Below are positions 2,929 to 24,264 of a stretch of DNA of 35,395 nucleotides, in pieces; the stretch's first letter is position 1; the number at the start of each line of letters is the position of its first letter. The position numbers and the translations under genes are program-made. The DNA comes from Limisphaerales bacterium (GTDB lineage: Bacteria; Verrucomicrobiota; Verrucomicrobiia; Limisphaerales; SXTU01): assembly GCA_009773355.1 (NCBI GenBank), contig WRPG01000078.1, positions 1-35,395 on the forward strand, written 5' to 3'. Below the pieces are notes generated by a model. It was not told the DNA's origin. It ran no database searches and worked only from the letters and a program-made list of their open reading frames with translations.

Positions 2929-3023
2929 AAACCACGAATGGACACTAATGGACACGAATTGGGACAGTGCCACCTGCGCGGCTGCCAATTTGAATTCGTG
3001 TTGATTCGTGTCCATTCGTGGTT
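2929..3023. repeat. Palindromic repeat, family A (ACCACGAATGGACACGAAT type), copy 1
   Basis: Arms at 2929-2960 and 2993-3023 are inverted complements with about four mismatches. Each arm is built from short direct iterations of a CGAATGGACA-like unit. The element sits between the DUF1549/1553 and DUF1501 genes of one transcription unit. Copies 2 and 3 are at 20058-20139 and 24186-24264. Confidence 0.9.
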
Positions 3024-3032
3024 TCAGTGGTT

Positions 3033-4685
3033 TCAGTGGTTCGTGAAAAACTCCATGCTCGACAGCATCGCCCACGCGAAATGGCCGAGGGCCTTCTCGC
3101 GGTCGGCGGCGTGCTTGGCCAGATACTTCTCCAGCGTGGCCGTCTCCTCAGTCGTGGGCGGACGGCTCAGGATGGTGTGGAAGAGATCGTCGGCAATCTG
3201 CGCCGGCTCCTTAAGCGCGGCGATACGCGCGATGAGGTTGCCGGGGCGCGGCTGGAAGGCCCAGAGAATCTGGTCGTTGTTGCGGAGGAACAGCGCGGCC
3301 TTGAGCGTCGGGTTCACGGTCAACTCCGGCTCCTTCGCATCATTGGCGAACGCGGCGAGGAAGGCCTTCTCGAAATCCTTCAGCATCTTCGGCTTGTCGC
3401 CCTCGGCCCAGCCCTTGCCGTTCACCACGCGCTCCTGCTCACCGACGGCGAGGAGGAACGACCGCGCGAGCTGCTCGGCGGAAAGCGGACGCTCCTTCGC
3501 GGCGAGGAAAAGCGGCTCGGGCACCTGGTCCGCGCTGGTGGGCAGCACGGTGGAACGCGCGTAAGTCTGCGTCAGCGCCAGCTCGCGCAACAGCCACTGG
3601 AGGTCGAACTTGTGCTCGGTCAGCTCCTTCGCCAGCAAGTCGAACAGCTCAGGATGCGACGCCGGGTTCTCCGAGTGCTGCAAGTCCAGCGGCTCGACCA
3701 GCCCGCGGCCCATGAGCTGCCACCAGGCGCGGTTGGCGATGTTGCGGGCGAAGGGCGCGTTGTCAGCCGAAGCGAGGCGCACGGCGAGCTCCTTGAGCGG
3801 GCTGAACTTGGGCACGCCCGCCTTGCGTGTCTTCGGGTCGGGTGGCACGGCCCAGAGTTCTTCCTTCGTCGTCGCGGTCGGAATCTCCACCTCGACGCCG
3901 AGCGGCACGCGCGGGCCGGTCGCGCCCTTCACGCTGCTGAGGACGGAGACGAACTGGTATTTGTTGGTGACAAGGCCCTCCTGCACCCACGCGGTTTTGT
4001 AATCGCCGCCCGCCGCCTGCATTTTCAGGTTTTGAATCGGGAAGAAGAGGCCGTTGAAGTCCACCTGCTTGTAATCCTTCACCGTGAGATGCTTGTGGCA
4101 CTGGCAGCATTGCAGGTCCATTCCGACGAACAGCCGGCCGATGTCGCGCGTGAGGCCGGGGTAATCCGTGTCCTGCTGGCCGACCTTGTCGAGCCGGCGC
4201 GTGATGAACCAGCCCGCACCGCGCAGCTTCTCGTCCTTGAAGTCCGGGCTGATGATCTCGCGCGCGAGCTGGTCCCACGGCTTGTTCGCGCGGAAGGACT
4301 CGGTGAGGTAGTTGCGCCACTCGTCGTTCGCGCCGTTGCGCTCCATGAGCTGGATGTTGAACGCCTCAGCCATCCGCTCCGCATACTTCGGCGACGCAAA
4401 GAGCTGCTCGATGAGCCTGGCGCGCTTGTCCGGCGACTTGTCCGCCAGGAACGCCCGCGCCTGTTCCGCCGTGGGAATGACACCGCTGAAATCAAGGTAA
4501 GCGCGGCGGAGAAACTCGGCGTCGGTGGCCGGCGCGGCGAAGGGCTTGCCGGCGGCCTTCGCGGCGATGAGCTTGTCCACCCGCCGGTGCAGCGGCTCCG
4601 CAGTCTGCGCCATCGGGCGGGCAGCCAAGGTCACGCAAAGGCACAGGAAGGCCAGCGGGAGGCGGTTCCAGATGGATTTGCGCAT
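3033..4685 (-). CDS. DUF1549/DUF1553 secreted protein with a CxxCH motif
   Basis: A 550-residue protein. ATG 4685 gives a clean Sec signal peptide (MRKSIWNRLPLAFLCLCV, cleavage near residue 26). The reading frame continues upstream to 4808, but only through repeat DNA. The N-terminal half matches DUF1549 (EFLRRAYLDFSGVIPTAEQA at about 58-77). The C-terminal half matches DUF1553 (NRAWWQLMGRGLVEP and NPASHPELFDLLA). CCQCH at residues 193-197 fits the CxxCH haem-attachment pattern and lies where DUF1549 proteins usually carry such a motif, so covalent haem is possible but unproven. At 550 residues it is shorter than many family members, which carry an extra cytochrome module. It precedes the DUF1501 and WD40 genes and very likely works with them in the envelope; the reaction is unknown. 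Confidence 0.9.
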   Translation of the reverse strand: MRKSIWNRLPLAFLCLCVTLAARPMAQTAEPLHRRVDKLIAAKAAGKPFAAPATDAEFLRRAYLDFSGVIPTAEQARAFLADKSPDKRARLIEQLFASPKYAERMAEAFNIQLMERNGANDEWRNYLTESFRANKPWDQLAREIISPDFKDEKLRGAGWFITRRLDKVGQQDTDYPGLTRDIGRLFVGMDLQCCQCHKHLTVKDYKQVDFNGLFFPIQNLKMQAAGGDYKTAWVQEGLVTNKYQFVSVLSSVKGATGPRVPLGVEVEIPTATTKEELWAVPPDPKTRKAGVPKFSPLKELAVRLASADNAPFARNIANRAWWQLMGRGLVEPLDLQHSENPASHPELFDLLAKELTEHKFDLQWLLRELALTQTYARSTVLPTSADQVPEPLFLAAKERPLSAEQLARSFLLAVGEQERVVNGKGWAEGDKPKMLKDFEKAFLAAFANDAKEPELTVNPTLKAALFLRNNDQILWAFQPRPGNLIARIAALKEPAQIADDLFHTILSRPPTTEETATLEKYLAKHAADREKALGHFAWAMLSSMEFFTNH

Positions 4686-4772
4686 GGCTACTGGACGAAC
4701 GCGGGGGGCGGGGCATTGAAGGGCAATGACGGCAGGAGCGCGGACGCCCACGTCCGCAGTTGCAGTGACTCG

Positions 4773-9662: not shown

Positions 9663-11042
9663 GTGAACCTCACTGACACTTCCAGCCCAGCCGACCGCGC
9701 GCGGCACCTCCGCGACGCGCTGCCGCCCGGCGGTCTTTTCGCCGACCAGCACTGGCGCATCTCCCCGGCCCCGTTCGCCCTCGGACCGGAGCTGGCGAAG
9801 GAGCTCGATTCGCTCGGGCGCGTGCTGCTCCAGTTCTATCGCGCGGTCAACCTGCTCTACCGCAGGAGCGTCGAGGGCAGGCAGCCCGAGTGGATTGCGC
9901 GCTGGCTGGATCAAGGCAAGCCCGCGTGGCTCGTGGAACTTCAGCGGCACCCGGCGCTCAAGAACGAGCTGCCCCGCGTCATCCGCCCGGACATTCTGCT
10001 GACGGAGGGCGGCTTCAGCATCACGGAGCTGGACAGCGTGCCCGGCGGCATCGGGCTGACGGCGTGGCTGAATCAGACCTACGATTCCGTGTTGCGTGCT
10101 GCGTGTTCCGTGTCGTCACCGGACGCACAACACGCAGCACGCAACACGCAACACGCCATCGGCGGCGCGGACGGGATGCTCAAAGGCTTCGCCTCCCTCT
10201 TCGGCGATGCGCAGCAAGTCCACATCGTCGTCTCGGAGGAGTCGGGCAGCTATCGCCCGGAGATGGAATGGCTGGCGGGGCAGGTTTCAGGTTCAAGGTT
10301 CCAGGTTCAAAGTTCGGAGTTTTCCCACCCCGCCCCCGGCGACGCCGTGTATCGCTTCTTCGAGCTGTTCGACGTGGCGAACGTGCCGGGGGCGCGGCGG
10401 CTCTTCGAACTGGCGATGGAGCAGCAAATCCGCCTCACGCCGCCGCCGCGACCGGTCTTCGAGGAGAAGCTCATCTTCGCGCTGCTGTGGAACCGCAACC
10501 TGCGCGGCTTCTGGCGGCAGGAGCTGGGCGAAGGCTTCCTGCACCGGCTGCAAAAGGCCGTGCCCTACACCTGGGTCGTGGACCCGACGCCGCTGCCGCC
10601 GCACGCGGCCATCCCCGAACTGAACCTCACGGACTGGCGGCAGCTCATGGCGCTCTCGCAACGCGAGCGCGAGCTGATCCTGAAAGTGTCCGGCTACTCC
10701 GAGGAGGCGTGGGGGGCGCGCGGAGTTTATTACGGCAGCGACCTCTCGACGGCGGAGTGGAGCGTGGCGGTGGAGAAGGCGCTGCGCGAGTTCGAGCGCA
10801 CGCCCTACGTGCTTCAGCGCTACCATAAACCCCGCCTCGTCGAGTCGCATTGGTTCGACTTCGAGCGCAACCAGCTCGTGCTGATGCTGGGCCGCGTGCG
10901 GCTGTGCCCCTACTACTTCGTCGGCGGTGAGGGCGACGCCGCGCGCGCGAACCTCGGCGGCGTGCTGGCGACCATCTGCCCGGCGGACAAGAAGATCATC
11001 CACGGGATGAAGGATGCCATCCTAGCGCCCTGCGCGGCATGA
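9663..11042 (+). CDS. ATP-grasp-like protein of unknown function, with repeat DNA in frame
   Basis: A protein of about 459 residues. RVIRPDILLTEGGFSITELD (about 105-124) and the C-terminal GARGVYYGSDLSTAEW ... YVLQRYHKP resemble a circularly permuted ATP-grasp (glutathionylspermidine-synthase/amino-acid-ligase type) fold, so it may ligate a carboxylate to an amine. This is a fold-level guess. GTG 9663 is the first plausible start; TTG 9618 is also in frame and there is no clear ribosome site. The reading frame contains two stretches that do not look like protein: residues about 143-165, from a palindromic DNA element, and about 207-221 (VSGSRFQVQSSEF), from a GGTTCAAGGTT-type direct repeat. 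Both keep the frame open. They may be tolerated surface-loop insertions. Confidence 0.7.
   Translation: MNLTDTSSPADRARHLRDALPPGGLFADQHWRISPAPFALGPELAKELDSLGRVLLQFYRAVNLLYRRSVEGRQPEWIARWLDQGKPAWLVELQRHPALKNELPRVIRPDILLTEGGFSITELDSVPGGIGLTAWLNQTYDSVLRAACSVSSPDAQHAARNTQHAIGGADGMLKGFASLFGDAQQVHIVVSEESGSYRPEMEWLAGQVSGSRFQVQSSEFSHPAPGDAVYRFFELFDVANVPGARRLFELAMEQQIRLTPPPRPVFEEKLIFALLWNRNLRGFWRQELGEGFLHRLQKAVPYTWVVDPTPLPPHAAIPELNLTDWRQLMALSQRERELILKVSGYSEEAWGARGVYYGSDLSTAEWSVAVEKALREFERTPYVLQRYHKPRLVESHWFDFERNQLVLMLGRVRLCPYYFVGGEGDAARANLGGVLATICPADKKIIHGMKDAILAPCAA
10088..10148. repeat. Palindromic repeat inside a coding sequence
   Basis: Perfect 17-base inverted arms, 10091-10107 and 10129-10145, are rich in GTTGCGTGCTGCGTGTT. 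They lie within the ATP-grasp-like gene, translated as a low-complexity stretch (RAACSVSSPDAQHAARNTQHA), without breaking the frame. Confidence 0.9.
10283..10316. repeat. Short direct repeat of AGGTTCAA type inside a coding sequence
   Basis: Iterated units AGGTTTC, AGGTTCAAGGTTCC and AGGTTCAAAGTTC form a simple-sequence tract about 135 bases downstream of the palindrome in the same gene. It too is read through in frame. Confidence 0.75.
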
Positions 11043-12058: not shown

Positions 12059-12334
12059 AGGTCTGGGCCGCTCAAAAACGCCTTGACGCGTCCCGGCCCG
12101 TTTCTTTTACTCCCCCACAAGAGCAATCACCCTGAACGACGCGGGTCATACCGCGTGGAGTGGTGTGGCCATGACGGTGGGACATGGGACAATTCAGCAC
12201 GGCTGCCGGGTCGGCGAGGCATCCTCGCGCCCGGAGGCGAAGGGATGTCCGGTCGCCGCCCATTTTGCCGTCCGTTATCGTCATCCTAGCCCTCCATTCT
12301 CCAAAATCACCCTGACGGCGAGGCATTTTACCAC
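12059..12334. other. Non-coding stretch, nothing recognised
   Basis: No credible gene, hairpin or repeat was found here. Open frames exist on both strands, but their products are Arg/Pro/Ser-rich and look like shadows of GC-rich DNA. The composition is ordinary up to the start of the 21-bp array. Confidence 0.5.
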
Positions 12335-12544
12335 TTCGACGCCTCTCAATGCCTCGTCGCCGGCTCGGAGCACGCCCTCGACCCCAAGCAACGGCTGCTC
12401 GACCTGTCGGAACGATGTCTCGACAGGTCGCAACGCCAGTTCGACGCCTCGAACTGCCCTCTCGACGCCTCAAACCGACCTCTCGACGCCTCGAACTGCC
12501 CTCTCGACCGCTCGGAATGACCCTTCGACCGCTCAGAACGTCGC
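12335..12544. repeat. 21-bp tandem repeat array, ten units
   Basis: Ten consecutive units keep an exact 21-base period, starting at 12335, 12356, 12377, 12398, 12419, 12440, 12461, 12482, 12503 and 12524. Nine of the ten begin with (C/T)TCGAC; the second has GTCGCC. Most carry a second TC(G/A) about nine bases on (CTCGACGCCTCGAACTG). Units 6-9 are nearly identical, and the outer ones are decayed; a fading trace continues to about 12625. Because 21 is divisible by three, each frame reads a heptad. On the minus strand the units read like S-R-G-Q-F-E-A, but no convincing gene start or conserved flanks accompany it. The array ends 217 bases before the FN3 gene start. Confidence 0.93.
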
Positions 12545-12744
12545 GTCGTCGTTGACGACTGACCGCCCTGAGCCGTCGAGCTGGCACTCTGACTTGTCGC
12601 CGGCATTCTCCGGTCCGTCGAGCGGCTGTTCCGAGGCGGCGACCGGCCATCCCTTCATGCCGGCTTGGCATTATGACTGCCCGCTGGCGCTCCCCAAGCA
12701 GACGACCTCCCTTTTACCGCTGTCGGTCAACCAAAACAGTCAAC
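12545..12744. other. Leader region of the FN3 gene
   Basis: The region holds degenerate continuation of the 21-bp units (scattered GTCGAGC motifs to about 12625), then ordinary sequence. From about 12720 it becomes A-rich (CAACCAAAACAGTCAACAG), in contrast to the surrounding GC, and probably contains the promoter and untranslated leader of the gene at 12762. I could not assign -35 and -10 boxes with confidence. Confidence 0.4.
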
Positions 12745-12752
12745 AGAAAGGA
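12745..12752 (+). promoter_or_regulatory. Shine-Dalgarno sequence of the FN3 gene
   Basis: AGAAAGGA lies about nine bases before the ATG at 12762. It is the clearest ribosome-binding site in the window, where most genes have none, and it suggests strong translation of the FN3 protein. Confidence 0.7.
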
Positions 12753-12761
12753 TAAATCAGT

Positions 12762-13703
12762 ATGTTCGAGAACTATGTGTTTGAGACCTTGCGTCTCCGT
12801 TACATCAAGGCCGCGATGGATGCCATCGCGGCCTATCGGCCCGACGGGAAGACGCCTGCCGAAGTGCAGGCGATGGTCGCCAACGCCACGTCCCCCACGG
12901 GGCCGCGCGGCGTGTATGAGTCCGCCTACGCCACGCTCCAGCTCGCCCAGGGCGAGTATGACGAGGACATCGCCGAGCTGCACGGCGTCTGCGTGCAGGT
13001 CTATCCCATCATGAAAAGCCGCTACCGCACCGATGCCGGGAGCACCTCCGCCATCAACTCCCTGCCCACGCAGGACGAGACCGGCACCGAGACGTTCACG
13101 CGCGGCAAGGCCATCTCCACGCTGTGGGGCAAGCTGCCCAACCCGCCCGGCTCCGCCACACCCTTCAAGGCGTGGGACACGATGGGCCTGACGGAGTTCA
13201 ACGCGTTCCTCACCGCCATTGAGGGCACCGCCGGCCCGCCCGTGGTGGAGGGCACGCTCGCCGCGAAGGCCAGCGCCGAGTCCGCCTTCCAGGTGGCCGA
13301 GGGCGCGCTGCACAAGGCCGAGCAGGACATGGGGGACTTCGCCACCAACGCGCTCATCCAGGGGCGCGGGCAGTTCCCCGAGGGCACGCCCAACCGCGAG
13401 GTCATTGACGCCATCCCGACCGCGCCCGCCACGCAGCCGCCGGGCCAGGCCGTCATCACGAACGCCAGCTCCCCCGCAGCGGGCGCGGCGCACTTCGACT
13501 ACGACGCGCCGCACAGCACGAGCTGGGACGTGTTCCGCAAGGGGCCGGCGGACGCCGACTTCGTGAAGGTGGCCAATGACGTGATCGTGAAGACCTACGA
13601 CGCGACCGGGCTGCCCGCCGGCGCGTATGACTTCAAGGTCATCGGCCGCAACTCGAAGGGCGACGGCCCCGTCAGCGCCGTGACGACGATCACGGTGGCG
13701 TAA
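12762..13703 (+). CDS. Fibronectin type III domain protein of unknown function
   Basis: A 313-residue protein. Residues about 1-220 look largely helical (FENYVFETLRLRYIKAAMDA; AESAFQVAEGALHKAEQDMG) and match no family I recognise. Residues about 228-313 form one fibronectin-III-like beta-sandwich (TSWDVFRKGPADADFVKVAN ... GLPAGAYDFKVIGRNSKGDG). There is no signal peptide or membrane helix. The ATG is set by a good Shine-Dalgarno sequence, unusual in this window. A 21-bp tandem array lies upstream, a strong GC hairpin downstream, and the integron integrase next. The isolated position between repeat elements suggests an accessory gene. FN3 domains usually bind proteins or glycans; a structural or assembly role is possible. 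Confident as a gene, unsure of function. Confidence 0.85.
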   Translation: MFENYVFETLRLRYIKAAMDAIAAYRPDGKTPAEVQAMVANATSPTGPRGVYESAYATLQLAQGEYDEDIAELHGVCVQVYPIMKSRYRTDAGSTSAINSLPTQDETGTETFTRGKAISTLWGKLPNPPGSATPFKAWDTMGLTEFNAFLTAIEGTAGPPVVEGTLAAKASAESAFQVAEGALHKAEQDMGDFATNALIQGRGQFPEGTPNREVIDAIPTAPATQPPGQAVITNASSPAAGAAHFDYDAPHSTSWDVFRKGPADADFVKVANDVIVKTYDATGLPAGAYDFKVIGRNSKGDGPVSAVTTITVA

Positions 13704-13885: not shown

Positions 13886-14884
13886 TTACCCATCCAGCGG
13901 ACTGCGCACGCCGAGACCGGGCCGCTGCATGACATGCGTGTAGATTTGCGTCGTCGTCACGTCCTTGTGCCCCAGCAAGTCCTGCACGGTGCGGATGTCG
14001 CAACCATTCTCCAACAAGTGTGTGGCGAAGGAATGGCGGAACGTGTGCGGCGTCACTGGTTTGCTCAGGCGTGCCAAGACTGCCGCCGCCTTGACGGCCC
14101 GCTGGAGATTCACCTCATGCAGATGATGCCGGCAGGGCAGGCCCGTCGCCCGTTCCGTGATGCGGGAGGGCGCGGGGAAGATGAACTGCCAGCCCCATTC
14201 CTTCGCCGCGTTGGGATATTTGCGCGCCAGCGCGTGTGGCAACGACACCCGGCCAAACCCGGCCCGCAAATCCTGCTCGTGTTGCGCCCGCCCACGCTCC
14301 AAATGCTGCTGCAACGCCGCCGTGAGACTCTCCGGCAGCATCGTCATCCGGTCTTTGGCTCCCTTGCCGTCATGCACCACAATCTCGCCCCGCCCGAAGT
14401 CCACGTCCTTCACGCGCAACCGCAGGCACTCCAGCAGCCGCAGGCCGGTGCCATACAACAACCGGCAGGCGAGCTGATGCTCCGGGGCCACCGCCGCGAG
14501 CACCCGGCGCACCTCCTCCTTCGTCAGCACGGTGGGCAGTTTCGGGCCACGCTTGGGCCGCTCAATCCGCCCGATGGCTCCCAACTCCATATGCAGCACC
14601 TCGCGATACAGGAACACGATGGCATTGAGCGCCTGATTCTGCGTCGCTGGCGCGACATCCCGGTCTGTCGCCAGATGCGAAAGGTAAGCCTGCACCTCCG
14701 CCGCGCCCATCTCCCGAGGGTGCCGCTTCTGATGGAAGAAGATGAAGCCCCGAATCCAGTGCCAATAGGCCGACTCCGTGCGATGCGAGAAGTGCTTGAA
14801 CCGCATGACCTCCCCCATCTGCTCCCGCAGCTTCAACTTCGGGTTGGGGATGAACTTCTCCAGCGGTTTGAGCGGGGCATTCAC
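13886..14884 (-). CDS. intI: Integron integrase (IntI-type tyrosine recombinase)
   Basis: A tyrosine recombinase of the integron-integrase clade. From GTG 14884 it is 332 residues, close to typical IntI length; ATG 14971 would add 29 residues that are not IntI-like. Using the longer numbering, catalytic residues are Arg178 (GTGLR), His309 and Arg312 ([14 protein letters not shown]), His335 (LLGHKD) and Tyr344 (TQIYTHV). The IntI-specific insert is present between the conserved patches: [17 protein letters not shown] at 251-267. The C-terminus [16 protein letters not shown] is also IntI-like. It recombines single-stranded folded attC sites with attI, capturing or excising gene cassettes. The gene points away from the attI and cassette at 15014-15344, the standard integron layout. 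All catalytic residues are intact, so it could be active. Confidence 0.93.
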
Positions 14885-15007
14885 AGTTGCTTTCCCCGAT
14901 TCAATAACGAACCGGCGAATTGCACAAGGAGCCTGCTGGACAAGGTGTTGCCGAAGATTTAACCTCCGCACCGATGACCCTGATTAACGACAATCCAGTC
15001 GCTCAAT

Positions 15008-15020
15008 CATAATGTTAGGC
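15008..15020 (+). other. Putative attI core site
   Basis: GTTAGGC at 15014-15020 fits the GTTRRRY core consensus and stands about 130 bases from the integrase GTG start, on the correct side. Cleavage would fall between G15014 and T15015. No attC-like hairpin arm precedes it, so it is the attI/first-cassette junction rather than the end of another cassette. The accessory integrase-binding repeats of attI could not be identified. Confidence 0.7.
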
Positions 15021-15338
15021 CACAGCAGGAGCGTTGAGATTTTTCCGAGTCGTTGGTGCTGGCGAGGGTTCAGCCAGTTCGGGTTTGCAGACTGTCAGCG
15101 ATGGGAGTATTTGAGAGTCGCACGCTGGCGCGGGTGCGAGTGCGCCAAGCGATTGGAACGATTCAGGTTTTTGTGAGTCAGGGTTTATGATGTTTGTTTT
15201 CCAAGACACGATGCTGTGGCCTAACCAGGGCGCTGCAGCGAACCGCCGCCCCGCTGGGCAGTTGGACGGTTCAGATAATTTGGCCGCGACTGTTGCAGCC
15301 GACCGGGCGTTTCCGGCGGCGGTCGCTGAGCTTGGTCG
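15015..15338 (+). mobile_element. Single integron gene cassette, about 324 bases
   Basis: The cassette is bounded by the G/TT crossover points at 15014/15015 and 15338/15339. It contains no long gene. On the plus strand (the usual cassette orientation) a 29-codon frame runs from ATG 15101 to the stop at 15188-15190, or 45 codons from TTG 15053. On the minus strand a 64-codon frame starts at GTG 15209 and stops inside the core site (15015-15017). Its first 14 bases with the core (15014-15027) are the exact complement of 15212-15225, just before and including the attC R'' box, so the excised circle would carry an extended attC arm. It may encode a small protein, an RNA, or nothing. Confidence 0.8.
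15053..15190 (+). CDS. Possible small cassette protein
   Basis: A 45-codon frame from TTG 15053 (GTG 15056 and ATG 15101 are alternatives), in the normal cassette orientation and ending 28 bases before the attC. The product is basic and Val/Arg/Leu-rich, with two similar segments (VLARVQPVRV and TLARVRVRQA). There is no clear ribosome site and no family I recognise. It may not be translated. Confidence 0.3.
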   Translation: MVLARVQPVRVCRLSAMGVFESRTLARVRVRQAIGTIQVFVSQGL

Positions 15339-15344
15339 TTAGGC
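15219..15344 (+). repeat. attC recombination site (126 bases)
   Basis: R'' box GCCTAAC (15219-15225) and R' box GTTAGGC (15338-15344) are perfect complements. Inside them the L'' box CAGCGAACCGCCGCC (15236-15250) pairs with L' GGCGGCGGTCGCTG (15315-15328), except for one extra A in L''. That is the extrahelical base integron integrases use to choose the strand. Unpaired spacers (about 10 and 9 bases) separate R from L, as in known attC sites. The loop is about 64 bases. Crossover is expected at 15338/15339. Confidence 0.92.
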
Positions 15345-20057: not shown

Positions 20058-20139
20058 AACCACGAATGGACACGAATGGACACGAAGGATTCAGGCTGCC
20101 GCCGACAGGATTCGTGTTCCTTCGTGTCCATTCGTGGTT
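20058..20139. repeat. Palindromic repeat, family A, copy 2
   Basis: Arms 20058-20086 and 20111-20139 pair with about two mismatches and share AACCACGAATGGACACGAAT with copy 1 at 2929. It fills the gap between the VanZ-like and glycosyltransferase genes. Confidence 0.93.
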
Positions 20140-20142
20140 GCT

Positions 20143-21093
20143 TCAGTCGTCCTTCGCTTCAAGGTGAACGTTGTCCAAGAACCAAAACCGCTGCGGCTCG
20201 CCATCACCGGTGAAGACTGCCACCCGGCGGATGGACTTGAGATTCAGCCGGCGCCCCTTCGGCCCACGCTCGATCTCCACAGTCGGGACGCGGAGGCGGT
20301 TCCAGCCACGCGTCAGTTCAAAGCCCCGCTCGAAGCGTTCCGCAAGTTTGGCTGCGTCTTGGTCGTCGTCCAGGCGCACGAAGAGCGTGAACGGCTCGCG
20401 CGGGTTAAACACTTCCAGCACCAGCGCTCGAAACGGCGTCCAGTCCTTGTCGCCTGCCGAGTAATTCACACCGGCCCAATCCCCGGCCCCGCCCGCGACC
20501 CGCAGCGATTGCTCGCCGGTTGAAGCGCGGGCGCGCGTCAAAGTGGCGTTTGTCGGATGCCCGCGCGAGCCGCCCTGCGGACGCCATAGCTTCAACTCCG
20601 CCTCATGCTCGAAATCTCCAAGCGATGGAAAGTTTGCCTGCCGCCAGCGGATGCCGCGCCACTCCTCGTAGGCGGGCCAGAGCGCGACCGTCAGCGCCAC
20701 CGCGAGCGCAACGGCGTGACCACCGCGCCACAACCACTTCCCCGAGCGCCGCCACGCTGCAATTCCCGTGAGCGCCAAACCCGTTCCAATCGCGCCATTG
20801 ACGGCATCGCCCAGACTCCGCGACCGCCCGAAGAATGGCTGAAGCAGTTCCACCGCCACCGCAAACCCGAACGCCAGCGCGAAGGCCAGCGCGTTGCGGC
20901 GGGTCGTCGGCTGCACCCGCTCCGGCAGCGCGTAGAGCAGCACTGCCGCCAGCCAGGCCCACATCGGGATGTGCCCCACGTCGAATACATGGCCCCAGAA
21001 GCGGGCGTCCACCCGCACGCGCACCGGCCCGAAGCACGCCGCCGTGAGCACCGCCAGCGTGACCGCTAGCACGATGGATTTGCGGAACATCAT
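20143..21093 (-). CDS. VanZ-like membrane protein fused to a C-terminal beta-rich domain
   Basis: A 316-residue protein with two parts. Residues about 1-140 form a VanZ-like membrane domain: four to five hydrophobic helices, the motif FDVGHIPMWAWLAAVLL (37-53) and the typical AVELLQPFFGRSRSLGDAVNGAIGTGL (80-106). Residues about 150-316 are soluble and beta-rich (LRVAGGAGDWAGVNYSAG, FTLFVRLDDDQDA, FWFLDNVHLEAKDD) and look like a jelly-roll carbohydrate-binding or CIA30-like domain on the outer face. VanZ proteins give low-level teicoplanin resistance in enterococci, but most bacterial VanZ-like proteins have no assigned role. I chose ATG 21093 (MMFRKS). It lies between methyltransferase and glycosyltransferase genes, so an envelope-glycan role is plausible. 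Confidence 0.82.
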   Translation of the reverse strand: MMFRKSIVLAVTLAVLTAACFGPVRVRVDARFWGHVFDVGHIPMWAWLAAVLLYALPERVQPTTRRNALAFALAFGFAVAVELLQPFFGRSRSLGDAVNGAIGTGLALTGIAAWRRSGKWLWRGGHAVALAVALTVALWPAYEEWRGIRWRQANFPSLGDFEHEAELKLWRPQGGSRGHPTNATLTRARASTGEQSLRVAGGAGDWAGVNYSAGDKDWTPFRALVLEVFNPREPFTLFVRLDDDQDAAKLAERFERGFELTRGWNRLRVPTVEIERGPKGRRLNLKSIRRVAVFTGDGEPQRFWFLDNVHLEAKDD

Positions 21094-24185: not shown

Positions 24186-24264
24186 AACCACGAACAGACA
24201 CGAATGAACACGAACAAGAAGCCAGCCCAAGTGAGTCTCCCTTCGATTCGTGTCCATTCGTGGT
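24186..24264. repeat. Palindromic repeat, family A, copy 3
   Basis: The left arm 24186-24214 (AACCACGAACAGACACGAAT) and right arm 24242-24264 pair with several mismatches; it is the most diverged of the three copies. It sits between the ridA-like stop and the alkyltransferase-like start. Confidence 0.88.

Follow-up and report, generated by a model that had tools for sequence, protein, structure and literature searches.

A two-armed 21-bp repeat array upstream of a helical-bundle/FN3 gene in a Limisphaerales bacterium: candidate phased protein-binding sites in a putatively mobile module

Results

The window, by which we mean the whole 35,395-nt stretch of Limisphaerales DNA analysed here, carries on its forward strand a gene (12762-13703) for a 313-residue protein that AlphaFold2 models with high confidence (pLDDT 92.9). 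The model, together with matches to known FN3 folds, divides the protein into a helical bundle (residues 2-216) and an FN3 domain (residues 224-313), and the product belongs to no Pfam or NCBIfam family at cut-off. A structure search with the helical domain alone returned no clear match, the best (Z 7.8) being to BAR-domain and sensor bundles, and viral structures matched the product mainly via FN3 domains. No homologue of the gene was found in the plasmids, phages and viral contigs searched. The product is acidic (pI 4.79; 4.6 to 5.5 among the 12 family members examined), which makes it unlikely to bind DNA on its own.

A complete small integron adjoins this gene. Its integrase (13886-14971, reverse strand) matches TIGR02249 with 454.9 bits against a cut-off of 265, and the element further comprises a GTTAGGC attI-like core (15013-15019) and one canonical attC (15219-15344), which together delimit a cassette of some 330 bp. 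On contig C89 of G004, another species, a remnant of the FN3 gene is found next to intI, arranged as in the window. Two contigs of genome G007 (L016/L064 and L131), which carry array-linked family members, end in one and the same 89-bp piece of integron integrase, and the copy of the integrase in G007 has two in-frame stops.

Upstream of the FN3 gene lies an array of 21-bp units. The ten gapless units at 12335-12544 that the earlier note had described were seen again, as were the (C/T)TCGAC start of nine of them (the exception being GTCGCC at 12356) and the 217 bases that separate position 12544 from the ATG at 12762. These units, with the forward-strand consensus (C/T)TCGAC-N2-CTCg-n-A, have an identity of 0.65 at lag 21, 0.63 at lag 42 and 0.58 at lag 63. 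The array gives the strongest lag-21 signal of the window (0.667 in its best 168 bases, where the window averages 0.32 with a standard deviation of 0.05), and among lags 5 to 79 only 21, 42 and 63 exceed 0.48 anywhere in the window. The array does not, as had been claimed, end at 12544. Beyond a tip, GTCGTC-GTT-GACGAC (12545-12559), on which the best antiparallel register is centred (12552), the 21-bp register of this left arm runs on to about 12670 in a right arm of some five to six degenerate units (12560-12670, reverse strand), which resemble the left units more closely as reverse complements (10.5 of 21 positions) than in the same orientation (7.6-7.7).

Two conserved segments flank the array on the forward strand. 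The block at 12074-12232 is 75% identical (blastn and alignment) to positions 4537-4694 of locus L051, where it precedes the array of an 80%-identical homologue in another species, so that the two loci have a 159-bp block in common upstream of their arrays. The leader directly before the gene (12713-12743) is 90% identical to L051 over 31 bp and 92% identical to L026 over 37 bp.

Several other repeats occur in the window and at related loci. Heptanucleotide tandem repeats (TTCCGTG, CAACACG and CAGGTTC) lie inside a long open frame of the window at 10085-10156 and 10281-10315, and another (TGCGTGT) at L123 3347-3430. Dispersed decamer repeats, CACGAATGGA / ATTCGTGTCC, are found in the window at 2933-3041, 20061-20156 and 24189-24217 and at L020 1454-1495, one copy at L020 standing immediately before the FN3 paralogue. 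An interspersed repeat, CTCTCCCTTTGCGGAGCAAGGGGAGAGGGCCGGGGTGAGGGG, lies near several array-linked genes and elsewhere in the genomes (L057 6971-7082, L022 6-118, and L026, L082, L142, L145, L151 and L051).

Homologues of the FN3 gene were found in congeners and a related family, at 15 public genome loci and, among 388 sampled genomes of the phylum, in one more genome, from the same class. Of the 15 non-redundant homologues that are full-length and have sufficient sequence upstream, 14 are preceded by a non-coding array of 21-bp period. With every lag from 10 to 60 scored save the multiple 42 (49 lags), lag 21 came first upstream of 16 of the 18 FN3-family loci examined and in none of the downstream controls. 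Even two homologues from a distant family of the class have arrays with lag 21 as the best, ending at most about 60 bases from the start codon. Two loci count against the binding-site model developed below: L061, the full-length homologue that has no array, and L062, where an unrelated ORF separates array and gene. The earlier note had held that the array stands alone, which is wrong, and had asked whether further arrays lie before FN3-gene paralogues, which is borne out both in this genome and upstream of nearly all homologues.

The link between array and gene is strong enough to lead from arrays to new gene families. A scan by periodicity alone, covering about 1.54 Mb of the 6.16-Mb genome in pieces and with coding heptads, a 7-mer repeat and weak coding hits set aside, revealed arrays before two more genes (L034:1555-2595 and L039:7597-8667). 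Among the full-length relatives examined, an upstream 21-bp array was present at all eight loci of the L039 family, including the orthologue pair L148/L149, and at all three of the L034 family, with lag 21 likewise the best lag upstream of both. Profile comparison identifies the L039 and FN3 families as remote homologues along most of their length (hhalign probability 97.5%, E 6e-12), and no similarity of the L034 protein to the FN3 profile was detected. Two arrays of the genome have no family gene beside them and count against the site model. One lies upstream of argS (G000 contig C86, about 47,880-48,385; loci L011 and L048) and the other between glcF-like and hisC-like genes, so named from their translations (contig C16, 51,380-51,620; locus L090). 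A search for gene remnants beside the two gave no convincing match, and the argS loci of eight congeners have no array.

As 21 is divisible by three, the arrays could in principle code for a peptide of seven-residue repeats or for an upstream extension of the gene, and most of them, including that of the window (ORF 12165-12755), do contain at least one open frame. The codon-position pattern is nevertheless inconsistent, its combined p of 0.004 being driven by only a few arrays; orientation switches inside arrays, and the reading frame into the gene is not conserved. In four arrays (L135, L126, the left arm of L148, and L090) the gene strand has no frame that stays open across a tested stretch, so that heptad coding, which the earlier note had allowed for, fails as a general explanation, and we consider coding of either kind a very remote prospect.

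In many arrays the orientation of the units switches once. One half then matches the other far better as reverse complement (10-12.7 of 21 positions) than directly (4-8), as in L057 (12.7 against 5.9), L150 (11.6 against 5.4) and L145 (10.9 against 4.0). With synthetic one-orientation arrays searched in the same way for comparison, 23 of the 30 arrays exceeded the simulations on score and 17 on both criteria; the 13 that failed the strict two-criterion test count against the site model. The window copy exceeds the synthetic arrays in the difference between reverse-complement and direct identity and not in raw score, and its switch is only moderately supported because the unit itself is nearly palindromic (TTCGA-CGCC-TCGAA). 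Evidence for a second arm is stronger in L020, L057, L135, L150 and L011. When one anchor is used, L020, L051 and L011 have the same inter-arm phase, 17 mod 21.

Two facing arms would also suit an array that is transcribed and acts as RNA, the arms folding into the long imperfect hairpin of a regulatory RNA or a long gene leader. The position before the gene, with a conserved block upstream, agrees with this, and the RNA of the window and of L011 folds more strongly than shuffled sequence (z-scores of about -5; -5.1). However, the pooled complementarity of facing units is 0.513, against 0.46-0.54 for unit pairs shifted by 21, 42 or 63 bases, so that there is no sign of compensatory change or selection for pairing. 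The closest paralogue, L020, folds ordinarily (z -1.5), the window has no Rfam match, and several arrays lack a clear second arm. With the facing register not favoured, separate oriented sites in double-stranded DNA, each used independently, fit better, and we regard a functional hairpin as quite unlikely.

The period is 21 in every array, and the unit consensus differs widely among distant loci. Close relatives have their unit sequence in common (L133/L143, L148/L149, L054/L058 and L057/L022); the TCGAC-type unit of the window recurs in the argS array and also in L166, which belongs to a distant family (z 4.4-5.4 against the window, L051 and L011). Within this genome, comparisons between the unit matrices of the arrays mostly gave no match, and a single genome-wide regulator motif was rejected; since units fail to match between distant loci, a common regulator reading a single motif appears unlikely even within this genome. 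Intrinsic curvature was likewise rejected, the arrays having no 10.5-bp roll periodicity. Conserved positions within the unit form one contiguous block (combined p 4e-7). Orthologous arrays keep this core and nearly the same length. L133 and L143 align without gaps, with 88% identity in the first nine unit columns and 56% in the remaining ones, and the sequence upstream of a short flank is unrelated (25%). Differences in unit number, which the earlier note had proposed to look for between strains, were seen between species in L148/L149 (nine against eight) and not in L133/L143.

Tandem repeats are common, and those of L023 and L054 are nearly homogeneous, as would be expected if slippage had produced the arrays by neutral duplication with no function. 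Such an origin does not readily account for one period kept with unrelated sequences before three protein families, for cores conserved between species while the spacer diverged, for the constant length of L133/L143 or for inverted second arms, and we judge it very unlikely.

In four pairs of orthologues whose proteins are roughly 75-88% identical, no neighbouring gene was held in common over the 5-40 kb compared, the sole exception being one weak 30% paralogue match. The argS control has one or two downstream neighbours in common with congeners; because synteny is this short in the genus, the differing neighbourhoods are moderate evidence of mobility. The block and leader conserved between the window and L051 suggest that both belong to the moving unit, which thus seems to consist of block, array, leader and gene. 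When neighbouring ORFs were compared all against all, no transposase was consistently linked and no partner was shared save the family gene.

Orthologous units in different neighbourhoods, arrays without a gene and several copies per genome would also be expected of a mobile or selfish repeat, REPIN-like or an array of target sites, with the gene as passenger or partner and without a regulatory role. No transposase or recombinase is consistently linked to the arrays, though, the units differ among loci of one genome, unlike those of REP families, and orthologues keep their cores and a constant array length, which suggests use. We hold a purely selfish repeat to be unlikely.

Discussion

The reading that we favour, with about even confidence, is that the arrays are phased and oriented double-stranded DNA sites for a protein that controls the adjacent gene, and that array and gene together form a mobile module. 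The earlier note had named phased protein-binding sites as one possible explanation. The invariant period with changing units, the contiguous core, the orientation switch and the conservation of core over spacer all point the same way, and the binding itself remains putative. As in an operator array, the sites are oriented and helically phased and have a contiguous conserved core.

The mechanism could work as follows. First, each 21-bp unit would present a contiguous core as an oriented recognition site, and a spacing of exactly two helical turns would place all sites on one face of the helix. Second, the single orientation switch in the middle of many copies would make of the array a two-armed, roughly two-fold symmetric platform, along which a putative DNA-binding protein, probably not the encoded acidic protein itself, may assemble side by side. 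Third, the assembled protein could control the adjacent helical-bundle/FN3 gene, as on an operator or enhancer, or hold the gene in a nucleoprotein complex. Finally, array and gene would travel between genomic places as one unit, the unit sequence drifting with the lineage of the gene and the spacing being kept.

A more far-reaching proposal is that this is a new kind of mobile module and not a simple operator. Its two-armed array would be recognised by geometry and a lineage-specific core, would nearly always be paired with a cytoplasmic helical-bundle/FN3 protein, and would build with it a nucleoprotein assembly that might resemble those of segregation, defence or mobility; we put this forward tentatively and think it rather doubtful.

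A fixed spacing with changing sequence points to selection on the geometry of the DNA, in lineages whose gene regulation and mobile elements are little known. The protein families concerned are absent from Pfam, and the defined DNA element linked to them offers a direct handle on their function. The array is also a means of discovery, since periodicity could lead a genome scan to further families as it led here to those of L034 and L039.

Several known systems resemble the module in part. CRISPR arrays were considered and rejected, as the units here are degenerate, follow a 21-bp period and adjoin without unique spacers. The iterons of plasmid origins are tandem direct repeats of about 17-22 bp, spaced by two turns and lying beside the gene of a partner protein. 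The window array likewise consists of tandem direct repeats at two-helical-turn spacing, but no Rep gene is adjacent (no Pfam Rep family), the partner being an acidic helical bundle plus FN3 for which no plasmid homologue was found; many arrays have a second, inverted arm, and the unit differs at each distant locus. The centromere-like arrays parC (with ParR) and tubC (with TubR) are made of phased short sites upstream of their cognate gene, in two blocks in some cases. Ours likewise consist of phased short sites upstream of a gene, in many cases in two arms, whereas the loci share only the family gene in the all-against-all comparison and not an NTPase with its DNA-binding adaptor. Tandem operators and enhancers of transcription factors, for example of the OmpR/PhoB type, are also made of helically phased direct repeats before a gene; here there are about 10 to more than 20 units, the spacing is kept while the sequence changes, and the array moves with its gene.

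Integron attC sites have imperfect inverted symmetry and variable sequence, as our arrays do, and an integron adjoins the gene. The array, however, has no RYYYAAC/GTTRRRY box pair, the nearest canonical pair lying beyond the integron integrase (15219-15344), and its units are periodic, its stem pairing is not conserved and it stands 5' of the gene rather than 3'. REP/REPIN elements with their RAYT proteins are also dispersed repeats that sometimes sit beside a dedicated gene, but the present arrays are not one repeat family per genome, and no RAYT-type transposase was found among shared neighbours. Iterons, parC/tubC, attC and REPINs each lack a defining feature, and no description of such a gene-plus-array unit was found in the literature that we searched. 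What is new is the combination: a fixed spacing, a drifting sequence, two arms and a link to uncharacterised protein families.
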